Shown: positions 8,247-24,306 of the stretch, in pieces
How positions within the stretch are numbered: the stretch's first letter is position 1
Layout of the letters: every line of letters begins with the position of its first letter
DNA from: a virus
IMG/VR virus record: IMGVR_UViG_3300047276_000327
Span: 1 to 25,856 of that record
Direction: 5' to 3' (one strand)
DNA: 25,856 nt
Notes under the pieces: generated by a model
What the model saw: only the letters and a program-made list of their open reading frames with translations
Databases searched by the model: none
Told to the model about the DNA's origin: nothing
Program-made: the position numbers and the translations under genes

Positions 8247-8888
8247 TTAAGCAGCTAGACGCTGCAATAGGTTGGATACCTGCGATGGTGACCAGGTGGT
8301 ACCGCCGCGAGGGGTCTGCACGCTCTCGGCCTGGAGCTGCTTGGCGATTGCGCGTAGGGATGCCGCACCCATCTTGGCCACGATTGAGCGAACAATCGGT
8401 GCCACGGTGGCTGCGTAATCATCAGCTGCCTGGGCGGTGACTGCACCACCAGCTGATGGGTTGGGTGAGCCCAGGCGCACGCCACGGGCTTTAGCTGCGG
8501 CCAGGGCCGCTTTGGTGCGGCGAGCTATTTCCTCGCGCTCATGCTGTGCGACCACAGCTCGGATACCGAATTCCAGCGTGCCTGCGTGCGGCATATCAGC
8601 TGCCACTATATCGACACCGGCTTTACGCAACGCAAGCAAGAAAGCTGCATCACGCGATAAGCGGTCAATTTTGGCAATCAGAATGGCTGCGTTGTGCTTG
8701 CGGCATTGCTCAAGCGCAAGCGCCAACTGTGGGCGCTGATCGACCTTGCCAGATTCAATCTCGGTGAACTCAGCGATGATGCTGTCGCGGTAGCTTGCAA
8801 CAGCTGCCTGCTGGGCCTCAAGGCCGAGGCCAGATTGGCCCTGCTTGTCGGTTGATACGCGGTAGTAAGCGATGTATTTGGTAGTCAT
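8247..8888 (-). CDS. Small serine recombinase (resolvase/invertase family)
   Basis: The start was placed at the ATG ending at 8888 (MTTKYIAYYRVSTDKQ), behind AGGAGGGAGATTGAAA; the longer open frame has no domain upstream. The 213-aa protein has the catalytic Ser12 in Y-R-V-S-T-D, the paired arginines of KIDRLSRD (R76, R79) and the long helix EREEIARRTKAALAAAKARG. A C-terminal HTH follows (SLRAIAKQLQAESVQTPRGG then WSPSQVSNLLQRL). That is a complete short serine recombinase, not the >450-aa large serine integrase. Possible jobs are resolving genome multimers, inverting a segment or integration; no inverted crossover sites were seen. It shares a 14-bp leader with the gene upstream. Confidence 0.85.
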   Translation of the reverse strand: MTTKYIAYYRVSTDKQGQSGLGLEAQQAAVASYRDSIIAEFTEIESGKVDQRPQLALALEQCRKHNAAILIAKIDRLSRDAAFLLALRKAGVDIVAADMPHAGTLEFGIRAVVAQHEREEIARRTKAALAAAKARGVRLGSPNPSAGGAVTAQAADDYAATVAPIVRSIVAKMGAASLRAIAKQLQAESVQTPRGGTTWSPSQVSNLLQRLAA

Positions 8889-8915
8889 TTTCAATCTCCC
8901 TCCTGGGTAGTTGAT

Positions 8916-8931
8916 GGGGGCCGAAGCCCCC
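8916..8931 (-). promoter_or_regulatory. UUCG-tetraloop hairpin between two early genes
   Basis: On the minus strand six base pairs (GGGGGC with GCCCCC) close a TTCG loop, one of the most stable RNA hairpins possible. It lies in the 49-nt gap between the YodL-like stop and the serine recombinase start and is flanked on both sides by ATCAAC. There is no T tract, so it is not a standard terminator. It may stabilise the upstream message or lower expression of the recombinase. Confidence 0.55.
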
Positions 8932-8937
8932 GGTTGA

Positions 8938-9246
8938 TTAGATATTGCAGTCAAGAAAACCGTAGTTGTTAACGACAACGCACTTACCCGTTGCCAGGTC
9001 TTTGATGACATCACCAACGGAAATCGAATGCATTGGTGCTTTACGGTCAATCAGATCCTCATGTTCTCCAGAATTAGAAATCAAGAAAACATTATCGTGA
9101 GTGCCGTTCCATGAATCGATATGCGCGACCAGCTTGTAATCGCTAGCGTGGGCAGCGACAAGTTCTGCTGTGGGCTTGAATGTGACATCCGAATTGCGGC
9201 GAATGTCGTGGTTGTGAATTTGATAAATTGCGAAGGTTTTAGCCAT
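8938..9246 (-). CDS. YodL-like protein, first gene of the leftward operon
   Basis: The ATG ending at 9246 follows AGGAGATTGAAA and gives 102 aa beginning MAKTFAIYQIHNH; an in-frame TTG two codons earlier is unlikely. The C-terminal part MHSISVGDVI, then GKCVVVNNYGFLDC, resembles the YodL domain (S-x-S-V-x-D-[IV]...VxxxGF) found in mobile elements and phages beside antirestriction-type genes. As the first gene after the leftward promoter it would be made very early, which suits a host-takeover or defence-blocking role. That role is inference; the domain match is moderate. Confidence 0.6.
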   Translation of the reverse strand: MAKTFAIYQIHNHDIRRNSDVTFKPTAELVAAHASDYKLVAHIDSWNGTHDNVFLISNSGEHEDLIDRKAPMHSISVGDVIKDLATGKCVVVNNYGFLDCNI

Positions 9247-9279
9247 TTTCAATCTCCTAATGTTGGTAGTTGACGGACA

Positions 9280-9355
9280 CAGATATCTGCGCCCAGACCA
9301 GAGTAGAGCACATGAGATATCTGCTTGTCAACCCCCTATTGCAAAAAAGATATCC
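9280..9355. promoter_or_regulatory. Three GATATC operators in the divergent control region
   Basis: GATATC occurs at 9282-9287, 9316-9321 and 9349-9354, with centres 34 and 33 bp apart, about three helical turns. The first is a 10-bp palindrome CAGATATCTG (9280-9289) and the second has GAGATATCTG. Sites two and three fall between the -35 and -10 of the leftward and rightward promoters. The adjacent RHH gene is the natural candidate for the protein that binds them. Confidence 0.5.
9302..9331 (-). promoter_or_regulatory. Leftward early promoter (sigma70-like)
   Basis: Read on the minus strand, a perfect -35 TTGACA (9326-9331) is followed after 18 nt by TCTACT (9302-9307), which matches TATAAT at four of six positions. 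A GATATC palindrome lies inside the spacer. Transcription would begin near 9295 and read into the YodL-like gene at 9246 and the recombination operon. Confidence 0.6.
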
Positions 9356-9366
9356 ACAGGTATATC
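9339..9366 (+). promoter_or_regulatory. Rightward promoter (sigma70-like)
   Basis: TTGCAA (9339-9344) and TATATC (9361-9366) are separated by 16 nt, with a GATATC palindrome (9349-9354) in the spacer. It would start transcription near 9373, directly before the RHH gene at 9394, and could drive the whole rightward block of replication, packaging and structural genes. It is weaker than the leftward promoter by consensus score. Confidence 0.45.
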
Positions 9367-9393
9367 CTTGCGATATTTAACCGGAGGGGATAT

Positions 9394-9609
9394 ATGGCCA
9401 CAACAGAGTTTTCGGGTTTCTACTTTCGCCTGCGCCCACAGGCTAGGCATCTTCTAGCGGCTGCCAGCAAGAAATTGGGCAAGGATCGCACGGCTATTTT
9501 GCATGAGCTCATCGAGACCCACCTGGCCGAGCACTTGGAGGTGAGTGACCGGATAGATGCTTTGATGGCCAACATTCCGGTGATAGATATCCAAGAGGTG
9601 AAAGCCTGA
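9394..9609 (+). CDS. Ribbon-helix-helix type regulator
   Basis: The ATG at 9394 follows GGAGGGGATAT, a strong ribosome site; the frame is open upstream to 9325, but that part covers promoter sequence. The 71-aa product has a short N-terminal strand (EFSGFYFRLRPQ) and two helices (ARHLLAAASKKLG and RTAILHELIETHLAEHL), the layout of an RHH DNA-binding protein. These act as dimers, inserting the strand into the major groove of short palindromes. Its place beside the GATATC sites suggests an autorepressor that also controls the leftward operon. The stop overlaps the next start (TGATG). Confidence 0.65.
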   Translation: MATTEFSGFYFRLRPQARHLLAAASKKLGKDRTAILHELIETHLAEHLEVSDRIDALMANIPVIDIQEVKA

Positions 9610-9965
9610 TGAACGGCAGGGGCAGGCGCAACAAGGGTGCGACAGGCGAGCGCGAGCTGGCTGCAATACTGACTGAGCAGCTGGGGTTTGAAGTCAAGCG
9701 CAAGCTTGGCCAGGCCAGAGACGGTGGCCACGACATCGAGATAGGTCGCTTTTGCATCGAGGTCAAGCGCCAGGAACGCCTGGCCATCGAGGATTGGTGC
9801 CGCCAGGTTGAGTTATCGGTTACCACCAGCTCAGAAATCGATTCTGAGGGCTCTGTAGGCTCGCCTGTGCCTGTGGTGATCTTTAGACGCTCTGGGCAAC
9901 CCTGGAGGGCTGTAGTGCCTCTGGATTGGTTTTGTAAGGCCGTGAGGGAGGATCTCAATGCCTAA
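9609..9965 (+). CDS. PD-(D/E)XK nuclease, Holliday-junction-resolvase-like
   Basis: The 118-aa protein has the compact nuclease core: RNKGATGERELAAIL with E14, GGHDIEI with D42, and CIEVKRQ with E51-x-K53. This order (helix with Glu, then D-x(n)-E-x-K) is that of archaeal-type Holliday junction resolvases and related small phage nucleases. It would cut branched intermediates produced by replication and RecT annealing before packaging. It overlaps the RHH gene by 1 nt and the next gene by 8 nt. The nuclease fold is well supported; the specific junction activity is inferred. Confidence 0.75.
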   Translation: MNGRGRRNKGATGERELAAILTEQLGFEVKRKLGQARDGGHDIEIGRFCIEVKRQERLAIEDWCRQVELSVTTSSEIDSEGSVGSPVPVVIFRRSGQPWRAVVPLDWFCKAVREDLNA

Positions 9966-10247: not shown

Positions 10248-10509
10248 CGAGCTACGCTGCCGGTCTTGCGGCTGTGTGCACCTTGATAGTCGGATGGTCA
10301 ATCTGTCTTACGGTGGCGCTGTTGGGAATTATTCTGAAAAGTTTTACCTGCACGGCGAGGCTGCGTGGGTACTCAAGAGATATCGCACCAAAAAGACTCG
10401 CCTGGCTTACCTCGATGCTGTGGAAGAGAAAAGAGGGCGAGCCGCCCGAGTGGCGTTACGGGAAGAGATGATGAGGATATGGGAACACAAACAAACACAG
10501 CGCAAGTGA
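10165..10509 (+). CDS. Zinc-ribbon protein with basic helical C-terminus; start uncertain
   Basis: The frame holds C-x2-C (LRCRSCGC) and a strongly helical, charged C-terminal part (AYLDAVEEKRGRAARVALREEMMRIWEHK). That part matches a widespread short phage module ('YL..VE..RG..AR..L...I...W'). The start could be GTG 10165 or TTG 10192; neither has a good ribosome site. The better site nearby (GGGAGGGTCAACGG) serves ATG 10222-10224 in another frame, whose product is an unlikely apolar sequence. The 3' end overlaps the replication initiator gene by 31 nt. The C-terminal part is convincing and the N-terminus is not. Confidence 0.55.
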   Translation: MDGFYGVDSLISQRPGGSTDVPHTSQSDELRCRSCGCVHLDSRMVNLSYGGAVGNYSEKFYLHGEAAWVLKRYRTKKTRLAYLDAVEEKRGRAARVALREEMMRIWEHKQTQRK

Positions 10510-12677: not shown

Positions 12678-12786
12678 CATTGCCCACCTAAACGCACAAA
12701 GCGCAGGCATTTTCTTTCTTTCAATGATTGCCTTGATTGCGGCAGTAATCATCATAGATATACGAAAAGAGAATGACAAAAACTAA
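12655..12786 (+). CDS. 43-aa single-TM protein between the terminase genes
   Basis: ATG 12655 follows TGGAGGTAAAAG, a strong ribosome site inside the 3' end of terS, and the frame runs 43 codons to TAA 12784-12786, past the terL start at 12773. The product has a polar N-terminus (KQDWINSIAHLNAQSAG), one hydrophobic segment (residues ~19-35, IFFLSMIALIAAVIIID) and a charged tail (RKENDKN). Overlaps of 23 and 14 nt on the two sides suggest coupling of terS to terL. A membrane protein at this position is unusual; no family is recognised. Confidence 0.6.
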   Translation: MKQDWINSIAHLNAQSAGIFFLSMIALIAAVIIIDIRKENDKN

Positions 12787-14332
12787 AGAGCGCAGTCAAA
12801 AACAAATCCCATCTACTGGGCTAAATTTAAATTTTTCAAGGTCTCCGTCTGTCTGGGGATTCTTGCAGTCTGACGCATTTGTCCGTGGGCTGATGGGGCC
12901 GGTAGGATCTGGTAAGAGCTATGCCTGTGCAGCTGAGATAATGATGCGAGCTGTACGTCAAAAGCCCAGCCCGGTGGATGGCATCAGATATACCAGGTTT
13001 GTGATCGTGCGTAACAGCTACCCGGAGCTGAAGACCACAACAATCAAGACCTGGCAAGACCTGTTTCCAGAGAACACCTTTGGCCCAATGCTGTGGACAC
13101 CACCCATCACCCACCACATACGCCTGCCGTCCAGGGAAGGCGCATCTGGGATCGACTGCGAGGTAATCTTCCTGGCGCTCGATCAACCCAAAGATGTTAG
13201 AAAGCTGTTGTCCTTAGAGCTTACCGGCGCTTGGGTCAATGAGGCCCGAGAGCTGCCAAAAGCGGTGATCGATGGCCTCACCCACCGCGTAGGTCGATAT
13301 CCAACCAAGCGCGATGGTGGGGCCACCTGGCACGGTATCTGGCTCGACACCAACCCGATGGATGATGACCATTGGTATTTTCGTATGGCCGAAAAAGAAA
13401 AGATGACCGGCCCATATGCATGGAAGTTTTACAGGCAACCAGGCGGGGTGATCGAGGTATCTCCAAGCGACCTGCCAGAAAACCCAGAGGCCAATGACCA
13501 TATCTTTTCTGCTGGCCGGTGGTGGAAATTAAACCCCAAGGCAGAGAACGTGGGTAACCTACCGCCAGGCTATTACCAGCAGATGCTCCTGGGCAAAAAC
13601 CTAGATTGGATTCGGTGCTATGCCGAAGGCCAATACACCTACGTCCAAGAAGGCAAGCCCGTCTGGTCTGAGTACGATGACAACCTGATGAGTGGTGAGG
13701 TGGACTACGACCCATCCATACCGCTACAGGTCGGCTTAGACTTTGGTCTTACGCCAGCTGCGGTCATAGGTCAGCGGCTCGCTAACGGGCGTTGGATAGT
13801 TCTGCATGAGATTGTGACTTTTGATATGGGCCTGGAGCGGTTCGGCCAGCAGCTCCTGGCTGAGTTGAATGCGCGGTTTCCAAAGGCGCAGCTGATGGTC
13901 TGGGGTGACCCCGCTGGTATGCAGCGGGACGCGATCTACGAGGTCACCGCTTTTGACCACCTGAGAACCCTGGGGCTGCGAGCTCAACCCACGCCATCTA
14001 ACGACTTCAAGGTCAGGCGTGAGGCAGGTGCCGCCCCGATGCAGCGGCTCATAAACGGCAAACCTGGATTGATTGTCAATACGCAATGCAAGCTCCTCCG
14101 AAAATCATTAGCCGGTGGATATCATTTTAAACGCGTATCCGTTGGCGCAGGTCAGGAAAGATTCAGAGATAGCCCAAACAAAAACGAACACTCTCACGTT
14201 GGTGACGCATTTGGATATCTGCTGCTTGGTGGCGGCGAACACCGGCGCATGACTAAGAGTGCTTTTGCCCAAAACACACAGATAGCTCAAACGGTGGTCA
14301 ATGCCGACTTTGATGTCTTTACAACTCGCTGA
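12773..14332 (+). CDS. terL: Terminase large subunit
   Basis: The 519-aa packaging motor has a Walker A at residues 42-49 (GPVGSGKS), a Walker B region with catalytic Glu157 (LTGAWVNEARE) and a DTNP coupling motif at 192-195. The RNase H-like nuclease domain has D323 (VGLDFG), D379 (VWGDPAG) and D478 (HSHVGDAFGYLL). It pumps DNA into the prohead and cuts concatemers. Length and motif order are normal for podovirus/HK97-type enzymes. The ribosome site (GAAAAGAG) is weak, so translation may rely on coupling with the small ORF that overlaps its start. Confidence 0.95.
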   Translation: MTKTKERSQKQIPSTGLNLNFSRSPSVWGFLQSDAFVRGLMGPVGSGKSYACAAEIMMRAVRQKPSPVDGIRYTRFVIVRNSYPELKTTTIKTWQDLFPENTFGPMLWTPPITHHIRLPSREGASGIDCEVIFLALDQPKDVRKLLSLELTGAWVNEARELPKAVIDGLTHRVGRYPTKRDGGATWHGIWLDTNPMDDDHWYFRMAEKEKMTGPYAWKFYRQPGGVIEVSPSDLPENPEANDHIFSAGRWWKLNPKAENVGNLPPGYYQQMLLGKNLDWIRCYAEGQYTYVQEGKPVWSEYDDNLMSGEVDYDPSIPLQVGLDFGLTPAAVIGQRLANGRWIVLHEIVTFDMGLERFGQQLLAELNARFPKAQLMVWGDPAGMQRDAIYEVTAFDHLRTLGLRAQPTPSNDFKVRREAGAAPMQRLINGKPGLIVNTQCKLLRKSLAGGYHFKRVSVGAGQERFRDSPNKNEHSHVGDAFGYLLLGGGEHRRMTKSAFAQNTQIAQTVVNADFDVFTTR

Positions 14333-14798
14333 GAAACTCAACGACCAGCGCAGAAGAACGGGGCTGTTCTTTATGCCCTTTCACAAACACCACGCTACCA
14401 GGATAGATATCAAGTCCGAGGAAGTGCTGGTTGTGGCCAACCGAGAAGAGGCCATCGAGGTCTTTGACCAACAAGAACAGATGGGCGCAGCTGTTACCGC
14501 TTTCGTTTACAACCAGCCGGCAGCTATCTTTGGTTTTGTTTCAATTTGGAAGGGCGTTGCCGAGGCATGGTTAGTTGCGGATGACGTTATGAGATCAATG
14601 CCGGTTACCTTTACCAAGGCCGCAATACAAACCTTAGATATCTCTGCGATATCTATGGGATTGCATCGAACACAAATAACCGTTAGATCTACGGATACAC
14701 GGGCGTACAAATGGGCATCAGCAGTTGGATTCAAAGAGGAATGCCTGATGCAAAAGTACGGAACGGACGGCGTAGATTATTTTTTAATGGCGAGGTAA
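14301..14798 (+). CDS. T7 gp13-like / GNAT-fold internal virion protein
   Basis: This 165-aa protein starts at ATG 14301 behind GGTGGTCA and overlaps terL by 32 nt; an ATG at 14313 is also possible. It has a GNAT-like arrangement: TAFVYNQPAAIFGFVSIWKG, AEAWLVADDVMRSMPVTFTKAAI, then TDTRAYKWASAVGFKEECLMQKYG near the end, as in acetyltransferases. T7 gp13 and its relatives (DUF2833) have this fold without proven activity and are needed for virion assembly. The position beside the structural genes favours a virion role, but a true acetyltransferase is possible. Confidence 0.65.
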   Translation: MPTLMSLQLAEKLNDQRRRTGLFFMPFHKHHATRIDIKSEEVLVVANREEAIEVFDQQEQMGAAVTAFVYNQPAAIFGFVSIWKGVAEAWLVADDVMRSMPVTFTKAAIQTLDISAISMGLHRTQITVRSTDTRAYKWASAVGFKEECLMQKYGTDGVDYFLMAR

Positions 14799-16480: not shown

Positions 16481-18058
16481 ATGGCTGAGATGATGAGACT
16501 ATTGCCAGAGGATGTGCTCAAGCGGCACGACATGGCGCTACGGAAGAAAGACGATTTCCGCGACCTTTACGAGGATGCCTATGAGTTTGCGCTACCGCAG
16601 CGCAACCTCTATGACGGATATTACGAAGGCAAAGTTGGCGGTGCAAAGAAAATGAATCGCGTATTTGATTCCACGGCAATCAACTCCACCCAGCGATTTG
16701 CTAACCGTCTGCAATCAGGAATCTTTCCACCGCAGCGCAAGTGGGCGAGGCTTGAGCCAGGCGCAGACATTCCAGATGATCGCAGGGGTGAAGCACAAGC
16801 TGCGCTTGATGTCTACACAGAAAAATTATTTGCTACGCTCAAGCAGTCAAACTTTGACATTGCTATGGGTGAGTTCTTATTAGACCTTTCGATTGGCACC
16901 GCAGTAATGATGGTGCAGCCGGGAGATGACGTTAACCCACTAAACTTTGTTCCCGTGCCTCAGTACCTGGTGGCATTTGAGGAAGGCGCAAATGGCCAGG
17001 TAGACAATGTCTACCGCCGTATGCGGATCAAAGGCGAATCAATCCAGCGCCAATGGCGAGATGCCAAAATTGATGGCCAACTAAAGCTGAAGATCGAGGC
17101 AAAACCAACAGAAGATTTTGAGTTTGTAGAGGCTACGGTTTTCGATAACCAGCGCGGCGATTACTGCTACCACGTTATTCAGAAAGAGACCAAGCAAGAG
17201 ATTGTCTATCGCAGGCTAAAGACTAGCCCCTGGGTAGTAAGCCGGTACATGAAGGTGGCTGGCGAGATCTATGGACGCGGCCCGGTAATAACCGCAATGC
17301 CAGATATCAAAACCTTAAACAAGGTCAAAGAGCTGGTGCTCAAAAACGCATCGTTATCGATTGCCGGTGTCTACACCGCAGCTGATGACGGCGTACTTAA
17401 CCCGGCAACCATCAAGATTGTGCCAGGCGCAATTATTCCCGTGGCGCGTAATGGTGGCCCCCAGGGCGAATCTCTCAAGGCCCTGCCGCGAGCTGGTGAC
17501 TTTAACCTGTCGCAGTTGGTGATCAACGACCTGGTGCAAAACATCAAGCGCATCTTGCTAGACGAATCGCTGCCACCGGACAATATGTCGGCTAGGTCAG
17601 CTACCGAGGTAGTCGAGCGGATGAAGGAGCTCTCGCAGAACCTGGGCTCTGCCTTTGGCCGGTTGATCAACGAAACCCTGATTCCCGTGGTTACCAAGAT
17701 TCTTGAGGTCATGGACGAGCGCGGAATCATTACGATGCCCCTGCGGGTCAACGGCCTGGAAATCAAGGTATCTGCTGTGGCTCCGCTGGCGATGGCTCAG
17801 AACATGGAAGATGTCAGCAACATTCTCCAATACGCTCAGATTGCAGCCCAGGCTGGCCCAGAGGGTCAGATGGCAATCAAGGTTGGGGATATGCTCGACA
17901 TGGTTGCTGAGAAGTTGGCCATCCCACAGTCGATCCGAATGACAAAGGCCGAGCGCGAGGCGAAAATGGCCGAGGCGCAAGAGATGGCCCAGCAGGCAGC
18001 CCAAATGGCCCAGGAGAACCCCGAGATGGTTGAGCAGCTGGTTGGGGGCATGACCTGA
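16481..18058 (+). CDS. Portal / head-tail connector protein (T7 gp8-like)
   Basis: The 525-aa protein starts 2 nt after the previous stop. LPQRNLYDGYYEGKVGGAKK, VFDSTAINSTQRFANRLQSG and PPQRKWARLEPG (residues ~42-95), with later PPDNMSARSATEVVERMKEL, are hallmarks of the podovirus head-to-tail connector family. Twelve copies form the ring through which DNA enters and leaves the head and which nucleates prohead assembly. The Q/M-rich C-terminus (AQEMAQQAAQMAQENPEM) is a helical barrel-like tail common in these portals. Length is normal for the family. Confidence 0.95.
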   Translation: MAEMMRLLPEDVLKRHDMALRKKDDFRDLYEDAYEFALPQRNLYDGYYEGKVGGAKKMNRVFDSTAINSTQRFANRLQSGIFPPQRKWARLEPGADIPDDRRGEAQAALDVYTEKLFATLKQSNFDIAMGEFLLDLSIGTAVMMVQPGDDVNPLNFVPVPQYLVAFEEGANGQVDNVYRRMRIKGESIQRQWRDAKIDGQLKLKIEAKPTEDFEFVEATVFDNQRGDYCYHVIQKETKQEIVYRRLKTSPWVVSRYMKVAGEIYGRGPVITAMPDIKTLNKVKELVLKNASLSIAGVYTAADDGVLNPATIKIVPGAIIPVARNGGPQGESLKALPRAGDFNLSQLVINDLVQNIKRILLDESLPPDNMSARSATEVVERMKELSQNLGSAFGRLINETLIPVVTKILEVMDERGIITMPLRVNGLEIKVSAVAPLAMAQNMEDVSNILQYAQIAAQAGPEGQMAIKVGDMLDMVAEKLAIPQSIRMTKAEREAKMAEAQEMAQQAAQMAQENPEMVEQLVGGMT

Positions 18059-21705: not shown

Positions 21706-22306
21706 TTCCGCACTATCGATTTGTTCAGACGCTCTATTGATGTTGGGCGCTAAAGCTATCTCATCGTTTAACGAGGGAACCAGCGCGGCCAACGTATGTG
21801 ACCGGCTATACCCAGATATTAAAAATCAGACACTTCTGAATTATCCGTGGTCATTTTTATACAAGAAGATTCAGCTATCTAAATTAATCACCACTCCAAC
21901 CACAGAATATTCCTACGAGTACCAGCTGCCAGGCGATAGGATCGGGCCACCTCGCCAGGTGTTTGTTACCAACGCTGTTGGGGCCAGGCCGATTAAAGGA
22001 TATCGGATATTCCAAGACAAGCTGCTGACCAACGAGACCACAATCTACGTTGACTATCCGTATGCCGTCCAAGAGTACGAGATGCCGGTCTACTTTGTGC
22101 AGCTGCTCAAGTACATGATGGCCTGGCACCTGTCACTACCAATTACAGACCAGATCGACAAAACTCAATACTGGCAGCAGATTGCTATTGGCTCTGCATC
22201 AGAAAATGGCCGGGGTGGATATATGCGAACCGCTACCACTATCGATGGCCAAGGGCAGCCAATCTCTGTGATTGAAGACTACAGCCTAATTGACGTGAGA
22301 AATTAA
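21692..22306 (+). CDS. Tail tubular protein A (T7 gp11-like)
   Basis: The start was set at ATG 21692 (MAAGDSALSICSDALLMLGA), 8 nt after GGAG; ATG 21686 is in frame but worse placed. The 204-aa product shows ALSICSDALLMLGAKAISSF, then NYPWSFLYKKIQLSKL, and ends with SLIDVRN. This is the standard head of the podovirus tubular A / gatekeeper family that attaches beneath the portal. Its stop overlaps the tubular B start (TAATG). The two form the tail tube. Confidence 0.9.
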   Translation: MAAGDSALSICSDALLMLGAKAISSFNEGTSAANVCDRLYPDIKNQTLLNYPWSFLYKKIQLSKLITTPTTEYSYEYQLPGDRIGPPRQVFVTNAVGARPIKGYRIFQDKLLTNETTIYVDYPYAVQEYEMPVYFVQLLKYMMAWHLSLPITDQIDKTQYWQQIAIGSASENGRGGYMRTATTIDGQGQPISVIEDYSLIDVRN

Positions 22307-24306
22307 TGGCACGCTTTACGTCAATCCAGACTAACTTTTCAACCGGAGAGCTCGACCCTCTGCTCCGAGCGAGGGTTGATTTGCAGTCTTATTCAAACGC
22401 CCTTGAGGAGGCCACCAATGTGGTGGTGCAGCCCCAGGGAGGAATTAGGCGCAGGCCCGGTTCTAAGTACATAATGTCCCTGCCAAACTCAAGCACGCCA
22501 TCTGCCGGCAACGGCGTGCGCCTGGTTCCGTTTGAGTTCTCTACGTCCGACAGCTATATGCTGTGCTTTACCGATAGCCGAATGTATGTTTTCAAAAACG
22601 GCGTTCAGCAGTTGGCCATCAACGGAGGGGCAGACAATTTTCTAAGTACTAGTTTATATGGCCTTACTGGTGATAGGCTGGCCAATCTAACCTGGACGCA
22701 ATCAGCTGATACCTTGATTCTCTGTCACCAGGATCTTGCCCCGGTAAAGATTGTTCGCGGTGCCAACGATTCTGCATGGACTGCCAGCAATCTATCATTC
22801 GACAGTATTCCCAAATATGCCTTTACGTTATCGGTATCTAATCCATCTGGAACATTGACACCGTCTGCTGTAAGCGGCAAAGTTACATTGACCGCATCTA
22901 CCGGCACGCCGTTTAGCGCAGGCTCAGTTGGCCAATATATAAACGCTAGCCCACAGGGCCGGGCCAAGATAGTCAAATACACAAGCGCAACAGTAGTTGA
23001 CGCAATAGTCGAATTCCCGTTCTTTAATACCTCTGCTATTGCAAACGGCTCATGGGAATACGAATCTGGTTACGAGGCTGTGTGGTCTGTTACTAAAGGT
23101 TGGCCAAGAGCGGTCACGTTCCATGAGGGAAGGCTTTACTTTGCTGGCTCTAAGTCGCGGCCATCAACCGTATGGGGTTCCAAGGTTGGGCTGTTCTTTG
23201 ACTTTGAGGCAACCGAGGGATTAGATGATGATGCAGTTGAGGCAACGCTAGACACCAACACCTTTAACGCAATTGTTGATGTAGCCTCTGGCCGAGACCT
23301 GCAAATCTTTACAACCGGCGGCGAGTTCTATTGCCCACAAGAAGGCTTAGAACCAATCACGCCAACCAACTTTTTTATGAAAGCGGTCACCCGCAATGGT
23401 GCCAAAGAAGGTGTCCGTGTCCAGCAGCTGGAATCAGGCACATTATTTTTGCAGCGCCAGGGAAAGTCGCTTAATGAGTTTGCTTTTACAGACACGCAGT
23501 TAACCTACGTTACAAGCAAGATATCTCTACTTGCTGGCCACCTTTTAAAGTCTCCAACAAGGATGGCTTTGCGCCGGTCAGTTGCTACTGATGAAAACGA
23601 TTTGCTATTGATCGTTAATAGTGCTGGCGGGACAATTGCTGCTTTTTCTTTATTGCGCGTGCAAAACATAATTGCCCCGTCTGAGTTTACAACGGATGGA
23701 GAATATCTTGATGTTGGTGTAGATCTCACCACAATTTATACGGTGGTAAAACGTACGATAAATAGTACGACTCAATACTTTGTTGAGGTCTTTGATGACA
23801 GCTTGCAGCTTGATTCTGCCAAGTCTGGCGGCGCAGCTGCGTCCGTCTCTATGTCTCACCTTGTAGCCAAATCCGTTCAGGTTATTTTAGATGGTGCTGT
23901 ACAAGCGGCCCAGACCGTGCCTGGTGGTGGAACGGTGACGTTTCCCAGGTCAGCCGCTAGCTCATACCAGGTAGGTCTTAATTTCACAACACAGGCAGTC
24001 ACTATGCCGGCAGATATTAAGATTGCATCTGGAACCAGGTTGGCTTACCAAAAGAGAATTCTTGAGGTTAATGCCATTGTTAAAGACACTCAACATATGG
24101 TGATAAACGACAATGAAGTCACTTTTAGAAACTTTGACACTCAAAATACGCTTGATGATCCAGTACCTGAATTTACTGGGACAAAAACTATTGACGGAAT
24201 TCTTGGCTATACAACAGAAGGCAAGATCACTATTAAGCAAACTATTCCGCTAAAGATGACCTTGCTTGGTTTGGAATACAAGATATCTACATATCCTGGG
24301 GCATGA
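22306..24306 (+). CDS. Tail tubular protein B (T7 gp12-like)
   Basis: The 666-aa protein begins with FTSIQTNFSTGELDPLLRAR and NVVVQPQGGIRRRPGSKYI, the invariant opening of podovirus tubular B proteins. It goes on with large beta-rich regions (LILCHQDLAPVKIVRG, AVTFHEGRLYFAGS, RDLQIFTTGGEFYCPQEG). It forms the distal tube/nozzle that carries the fibres. Length is somewhat below T7 gp12 (794 aa) but usual for this phage group. Stop TGA 24304-24306. Confidence 0.95.
   Translation: MARFTSIQTNFSTGELDPLLRARVDLQSYSNALEEATNVVVQPQGGIRRRPGSKYIMSLPNSSTPSAGNGVRLVPFEFSTSDSYMLCFTDSRMYVFKNGVQQLAINGGADNFLSTSLYGLTGDRLANLTWTQSADTLILCHQDLAPVKIVRGANDSAWTASNLSFDSIPKYAFTLSVSNPSGTLTPSAVSGKVTLTASTGTPFSAGSVGQYINASPQGRAKIVKYTSATVVDAIVEFPFFNTSAIANGSWEYESGYEAVWSVTKGWPRAVTFHEGRLYFAGSKSRPSTVWGSKVGLFFDFEATEGLDDDAVEATLDTNTFNAIVDVASGRDLQIFTTGGEFYCPQEGLEPITPTNFFMKAVTRNGAKEGVRVQQLESGTLFLQRQGKSLNEFAFTDTQLTYVTSKISLLAGHLLKSPTRMALRRSVATDENDLLLIVNSAGGTIAAFSLLRVQNIIAPSEFTTDGEYLDVGVDLTTIYTVVKRTINSTTQYFVEVFDDSLQLDSAKSGGAAASVSMSHLVAKSVQVILDGAVQAAQTVPGGGTVTFPRSAASSYQVGLNFTTQAVTMPADIKIASGTRLAYQKRILEVNAIVKDTQHMVINDNEVTFRNFDTQNTLDDPVPEFTGTKTIDGILGYTTEGKITIKQTIPLKMTLLGLEYKISTYPGA

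Follow-up and report, generated by a model that had tools for sequence, protein, structure and literature searches.

The window, by which we mean the whole stretch of DNA analysed here, is an IMG/VR virus record of 25,856 bases and is podovirus-like by its proteins. Two operons diverge from its early control region. Leftward from 9246, the gene for a 102-amino acid protein and those for a small serine recombinase, a YqaJ/RecE-like exonuclease and RecT form a recombination operon. Rightward from 9394, a ribbon-helix-helix (RHH) gene is followed by genes for a PDDEXK/RusA-like nuclease and an O-like replication protein, in an operon that covers replication and packaging. The genes needed below are:

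8247-8888, minus strand: small serine recombinase, 213 amino acids
8938-9246, minus strand: 102-amino acid protein of undefined function, heading the leftward operon
9394-9609, plus strand: RHH regulator, 71 amino acids, from Pfam matches of homologues, a CopG-family match and fold matches
9609-9965, plus strand: PDDEXK/RusA-like nuclease, directly 3' of the RHH gene, likewise in relatives
12773-14332, plus strand: terminase large subunit, the landmark for the late operator
16481-18058: head-tail adaptor
22306-24306: tail protein

Among cultured phages, the nearest one found is Methylophilales phage MEP301, the head-tail connector of which is 80% identical. Phage records searched at the DNA level with the window gave no match, and neither did an Rfam search of the window and two late-region pieces. 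Two terminase queries of viral contigs returned at least 600 matches each, indicating that phages of this group are very frequent in the collection. When 84,980 bacterial and archaeal species genomes were queried with the nuclease, two distant matches only and no close copy were obtained. There is no sign of integrated copies, a result that fits a lytic life style. Several hundred loci were collected by searching with four proteins (RHH, nuclease, recombinase and terminase). Nearly all of those that cover the region have an RHH gene placed between the divergent region and the nuclease gene. In most relatives the recombinase gene is close by, and relatives differ in the small genes between it and the control region. 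In the window, both leftward genes have a common leader (8888-8945 and 9246-9285; TCAACTACC ... GGAGATTGAAAATG). Such shared leaders are reminiscent of the start-associated sequences in mycobacteriophages and may aid the exchange of gene cassettes. Between the recombinase gene and the gene heading the leftward operon, at 8915-8940, there is a GC-rich hairpin, GGGGGC...GCCCCC.

The following elements were located between the two operons:

9280-9289: putative operator O1, CAGATATCTG, core invariant in 23 of 23 relatives, flanks compensating (C-G/T-A)
9302-9307, minus strand: candidate leftward -10, TCTACT, N18 spacer, weak and variable
9315-9322: putative operator O2, AGATATCT, in the leftward promoter spacer, kept in 23 of 23 relatives
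9326-9331, minus strand: leftward -35, TTGACA, invariant in 17 distinct regions
9339-9344, plus strand: rightward -35, TTGCAA, invariant
9348-9354: putative operator O3, AGATATC, in the rightward promoter spacer, kept in 23 of 23 relatives
9361-9377: TATATC-N5-GATATT, a 17-bp dyad of the family type, spanning the rightward -10 and start
9363-9368, plus strand: rightward -10, TATCCT, N18 spacer, invariant in class A and preferred over TATATC at 9361-9366 (N16)

The original prediction described two face-to-face promoters in this region. They are in fact divergent and back-to-back, with adjacent -35 boxes. The hexamers assigned to the leftward promoter (TTGACA-N18-TCTACT, 9331-9326 and 9307-9302) are present and the -35 is invariant, but the -10 is not conserved, its second position never being A among relatives. 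Similarly, both hexamers assigned to the rightward promoter (TTGCAA-N16-TATATC, 9339-9344 and 9361-9366) are present, but TATCCT with an N18 spacer is the better -10; the class A2 locus L052 has TTGCCA-N18-TATCCT. Neither early promoter reaches the threshold of a consensus promoter scan.

The three GATATC palindromes stand exactly where they had been placed, at 9282-9287, 9316-9321 and 9349-9354, with centres 34 and 33 bp apart. O2 and O3 each occupy the spacer of a promoter, leftward and rightward, respectively, and O1 lies at about +8 to +13 of the leftward transcript. Conservation in related phages, which had been proposed as a check on these sites, was observed for all three in 23 of 23 aligned relatives. 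Over the control region, 17 distinct relatives could be aligned, and in these the three GATATC, the leftward TTGACA, the rightward TTGCAA and TATATCCTT are all invariant. The flanks of O1 switch between CAGATATCTG and TAGATATCTA (C...G or T...A), always as a pair, which is the outcome expected from selection on a palindrome. There is also an invariant fourth element, TATATC at 9361-9366, previously taken solely as a -10 box: it forms the left half of the dyad at 9361-9377, the right half of which is not conserved. The proposal that the sites lie on the same DNA face holds loosely in the window, where 34 and 33 bp correspond to 3.1-3.2 turns, but is weakened by the spacings of other classes, which differ (30/48/12 in L052, 75/11 in L055).

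GATATC occurs 21 times in the window, against 18 expected from 5-mer content. A genome-wide enrichment, suggested by a dinucleotide shuffle, is ruled out by this 5-mer expectation. The hexamer is thus common for compositional reasons, which makes conservation more telling than frequency. Several of the remaining copies in the window are lost among aligned relatives, being kept in 0 of 11 at 13296, 16 of 23 at 9586 and 6 of 9 at 14214. An extra copy at 10379-10384, close to where the replication gene begins, is shared by 20 of 20 relatives. Overall, the palindromes of the control region are genuine conserved elements with the appearance of binding sites for the protein encoded by the adjacent RHH gene.

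That the first gene to the right (9394-9609, 71 amino acids) encodes an RHH protein is borne out by homologue profiles and fold matches. The window protein alone gave no Pfam or PHROG family match. Weak Pfam matches were obtained with its homologues, to RHH_1 in 8 of 18 and to TacA1 in 10 of 18; orthology with P22 Arc/Mnt was examined, and the Pfam Arc family matched 1 of the 18 (E 0.0029). A profile of the family matches a TacA/CopG-family antitoxin of known structure. In the predicted monomer model (pLDDT 75), helices H15-28 and H32-59 follow an N-terminal segment; the β-strand is absent from the model because it pairs only in the dimer. The top Foldseek matches of this model in the PDB are almost all RHH proteins (TacA, PutA, ParD, Arc, AmrZ, CopG) with weak E-values, such modest scores being expected for so small a fold. 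Judged by these sequence and predicted-fold matches, the 71-amino acid protein is a member of the RHH superfamily.

The RHH proteins of the relatives fall into more than a dozen classes by their β-strand. Most classes have not isolated GATATC but a 17-bp dyad of two hexamers separated by a 5-bp linker (xATATC-N5-GATATx), for example GATATCACTGTGATATC and GATATCGTTGCGATATC. The early sites of class A, to which the window belongs, are mostly single hexamers, unlike this family dyad. Isolated GATATC are found again upstream in a distant class with a similar strand (TGFYIRLRP, L288). We do not claim a simple strand-to-half-site code (Phe or Tyr at residue 10 specifying GATATC), because proteins of the FMVR class use TATTGC, GCTATC and GATATC.

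The comparison revealed a second putative operator, new to this analysis, directly after the terminase large-subunit gene and 5 kb from the early sites:

14637-14653: putative late operator GATATC-TCTGC-GATATC, GATATCTCTGCGATATC, within the ORF 14301-14798, best matrix match in the window (20.0)
14661-14666, plus strand: candidate late -35, TTGCAT, 16 bp from the operator centre (14645), the same offset as in the family
14683-14688, plus strand: candidate late -10, TTAGAT, N16 spacer, weak compared with TAGAAT of relatives

GATATCTCTGCGATATC is the sole perfect copy of the 17-bp form in the window. The late operator is kept in all aligned class A relatives, as GATATCTCCGAGATATC where the context is 74% identical; since it lies inside an ORF in the window, protein coding could contribute to its conservation. 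In class A2, the same kind of dyad is found in the intergenic gap directly after the terminase stop. In other classes, the dyad begins at the stop codon or just behind it, and TTGCNN-N16-TAGAAT comes next. Among 53 distinct regions having such a promoter, the dyad centre is 15-16 bp upstream of the first -35 base in 42, the promoter spacer is 16 bp in 50 and the -10 is TAGAAT in 51. Among the 42 regions with the centre at -15/-16, the distance from the terminase stop to the -35 varies from 15 to 31 bp. Thus, it is the promoter and not the stop codon that sets the position of the dyad. With the -35 starting at about -34, the late dyad spans about -58 to -41 (centre about -50). The combination of a poor -35 (TTGCNN) and a good -10 (TAGAAT, 51/53) suits an activated promoter.

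Three genomes, G008, G009 and G021, have no operator at the standard late position and carry other sequence after the terminase gene. Just after the terminase stop, they have a GC-rich stretch of several hundred bases that looks structured (L260-L261 in G008, L262 in G009, L237 in G021). In G008, it includes an HNH-endonuclease-like ORF, and an Rfam search of the post-terminase DNA of L262 and L237 gave no match. This DNA is possibly an intron-like or HNH-linked element.

Whether early and late sites represent one motif was assessed with a symmetric matrix derived from 40 late sites (about 9 after similarity weighting), none of them from class A. On 72 distinct early regions, this late-trained matrix gave a mean best score of 11.6, against 3.24 +/- 0.33 for dinucleotide shuffles, and 51 of the 72 exceeded the 95% level of their own shuffles. 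Across 22 genomes or genome pieces (689 kb), 33 matches scored 12 or more: 13 early, 12 after the terminase gene and 8 elsewhere, mostly weaker. Thus, 25 of the 33 strong matches fall in early and late zones which make up about 2% of the sequence; 22 of these 25 are outside the training set, to which three of the 12 late matches (G006, G013, G029) belonged. In the window itself, 14637-14653 is the best match and 9361-9377, over the RHH promoter, the second best (score 11.7). Late operators also match the early regions of their own class better than those of other classes, the observed value being reached in 98 of 20,000 class permutations; the preference is modest because half-sites are alike between classes. 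A free dyad search in the early regions was barely above chance, with 7 of 72 beyond the 95% level, and it is the late-trained matrix that carries the case for a common motif. All conclusions are comparative, and related contigs are not independent of one another. Taken at this level, the comparison supports the view that the palindromes act as operator sites for the neighbouring RHH gene.

A related arrangement exists in MEP301 (MW452941, L154). There, gp52 (32729-32890, minus strand), annotated as hypothetical, is an RHH homologue (E 9e-15). The likeness to the window is that the RHH gene lies beside RusA and that a dyad, GTATC-TATGA-GATAT, covers the promoter of its operon (TTGACA-N16-TATACT), extending across spacer and -10. 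The differences are that gp52 is not the first gene and that no obvious late operator is seen in the 220 bp after the terminase stop. The deposited annotation names no such regulator, and the text of the MEP301 paper mentions neither a repressor nor a promoter (PMC8024684). Separately, a possible start upstream of gp53, just past the TTGACA-N16-TATACT promoter, suggests that gp53 may start earlier than annotated.

What can be read directly from the sequence are the sites and their conservation, the RHH fold call, the operator-promoter geometry and the match between early and late motifs. From these we infer the following mechanism. The 71-amino acid regulator would form dimers and bind the palindromes as its operators. 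In most relatives, the full operator, two hexamers 5 bp apart, would accommodate a dimer of dimers; in class A, it appears to have shrunk for the most part to lone GATATC hexamers close to the early promoters. As it accumulates, the protein would repress its own operon and the leftward recombination operon, and the positions of the early sites, in spacers, over a -10 and in early transcribed DNA, fit repression. At about -50 of the late promoter, the same protein would most likely contact RNA polymerase and activate the virion operon, and the position of the late site, just upstream of a poor -35 at fixed spacing, fits activation. The outcome would be early transcription off and late transcription on. 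The two-way switch of the original prediction survives in so far as the sites do lie between the leftward recombination and the rightward replication/packaging operons. It does not stand as a toggle at the early locus alone: there is a separate late operator 5 kb downstream, and the late genes are probably switched at this second site, after the terminase gene.

Could the palindromes be incidental, kept merely as parts of promoters or codons? GATATC is frequent for compositional reasons and the late site of the window lies within codons, but the invariance of the early sites against the loss of other GATATC, the compensating flanks and the out-of-sample matrix result already disfavour this reading, and we regard it as highly improbable. 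Binding by another protein, either the adjacent serine recombinase at a res-like three-site element or a host regulator, is also improbable, if somewhat less so. In favour of this reading, most relatives have the recombinase gene close at hand, and a set of three dyad sites is reminiscent of the res sites of resolvases. However, the sites are not tied to the recombinase gene as those of a res element would be: the motif recurs at the terminase promoter, 5 kb off and with fixed promoter spacing, and in MEP301 the dyad stands at the head of the RHH operon, with the recombinase some 2-3 kb away. Furthermore, hexamer-N5-hexamer is the layout of RHH operators, and the motif differs between RHH classes.

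A more serious alternative, which we still consider unlikely, is that the RHH protein represses at all sites, including the late promoter. It would keep virion genes off early and regulate its own synthesis, late expression following once replicated DNA titrates the repressor. Viral RHH proteins of known function are mostly repressors, and SvtR of the archaeal virus SIRV1 represses its own gene and, from an upstream site, a structural gene (PMC5569661). A site centred at -50 could be compatible with repression too, and the good late -10 means that the promoter may need no help. Yet, the late -35 is poor (TTGCNN), and the late operator overlaps neither -35 nor -10, keeping instead a fixed spacing to the -35 in 42 of 53 regions, as for polymerase contact. 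We thus favour, as the rather more probable reading, that the RHH protein represses the divergent early region, its own gene included, and turns the late promoter on, with binding, repression and activation all deduced from comparison.

Extended to the family, the proposal is that in a large, mostly uncultured, aquatic podovirus-like group, one RHH protein serves to repress the divergent early promoters and, from about -50, to activate a late promoter of the sigma70 type, and that RHH classes travel with their own operator spellings, making up a natural specificity series. In this general form, we consider the proposal evenly balanced between right and wrong. It provides a candidate regulator, motif and promoter layout for late-gene timing in a group with over 600 environmental contigs; MEP301, its closest cultured member, has no RNA polymerase gene of its own (PMC8024684). 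A single cultured phage would suffice to test the proposal. With their matching dyads, the RHH classes, more than a dozen in number, also constitute a data set on how the RHH β-strand reads DNA.

A literature search for an RHH late activator of phages returned no paper that matched all terms. The Arc and Mnt repressors of phage P22 are, like the present protein, phage-encoded RHH proteins. They serve the immI/antirepressor circuit, whereas the gene described here stands first in an early nuclease-replication operon, and its motif is found again at a late promoter. Arc uses two half-sites with a 5-bp linker, as quoted in the AmrZ report, where this linker is given as the AmrZ/Arc/CopG arrangement (PMC3325190); the same layout is found in the late and early dyads of the family and, in the window, at 14637-14653. 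AmrZ of Pseudomonas, bound as a dimer of dimers across a 5-bp linker, autorepresses at one promoter and activates at another (PMC3325190), but it is a cellular regulator with a GGC half-site. SvtR, also a viral RHH protein, acts at its own promoter and at that of a structural gene, but it works with the archaeal transcription machinery and as a repressor only (PMC5569661). In terms of function, the likeness is to p4 of phi29, an early protein that binds inverted repeats, with repression as the outcome at early promoters and activation at a late promoter whose -35 is poor (PMC3100819). In both cases, operators are found at early and late promoters of one phage. The differences are that p4 has an N-hook motif and not an RHH fold, a p4 fold being absent from the 71-amino acid protein, and that the early and late sites of phi29 adjoin and form a hairpin with p6, while those described here are 5 kb apart. 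By the position of the late operator and the poor -35, from which late activation is argued, the RHH protein appears to work like p4 without being a member of the p4 family.
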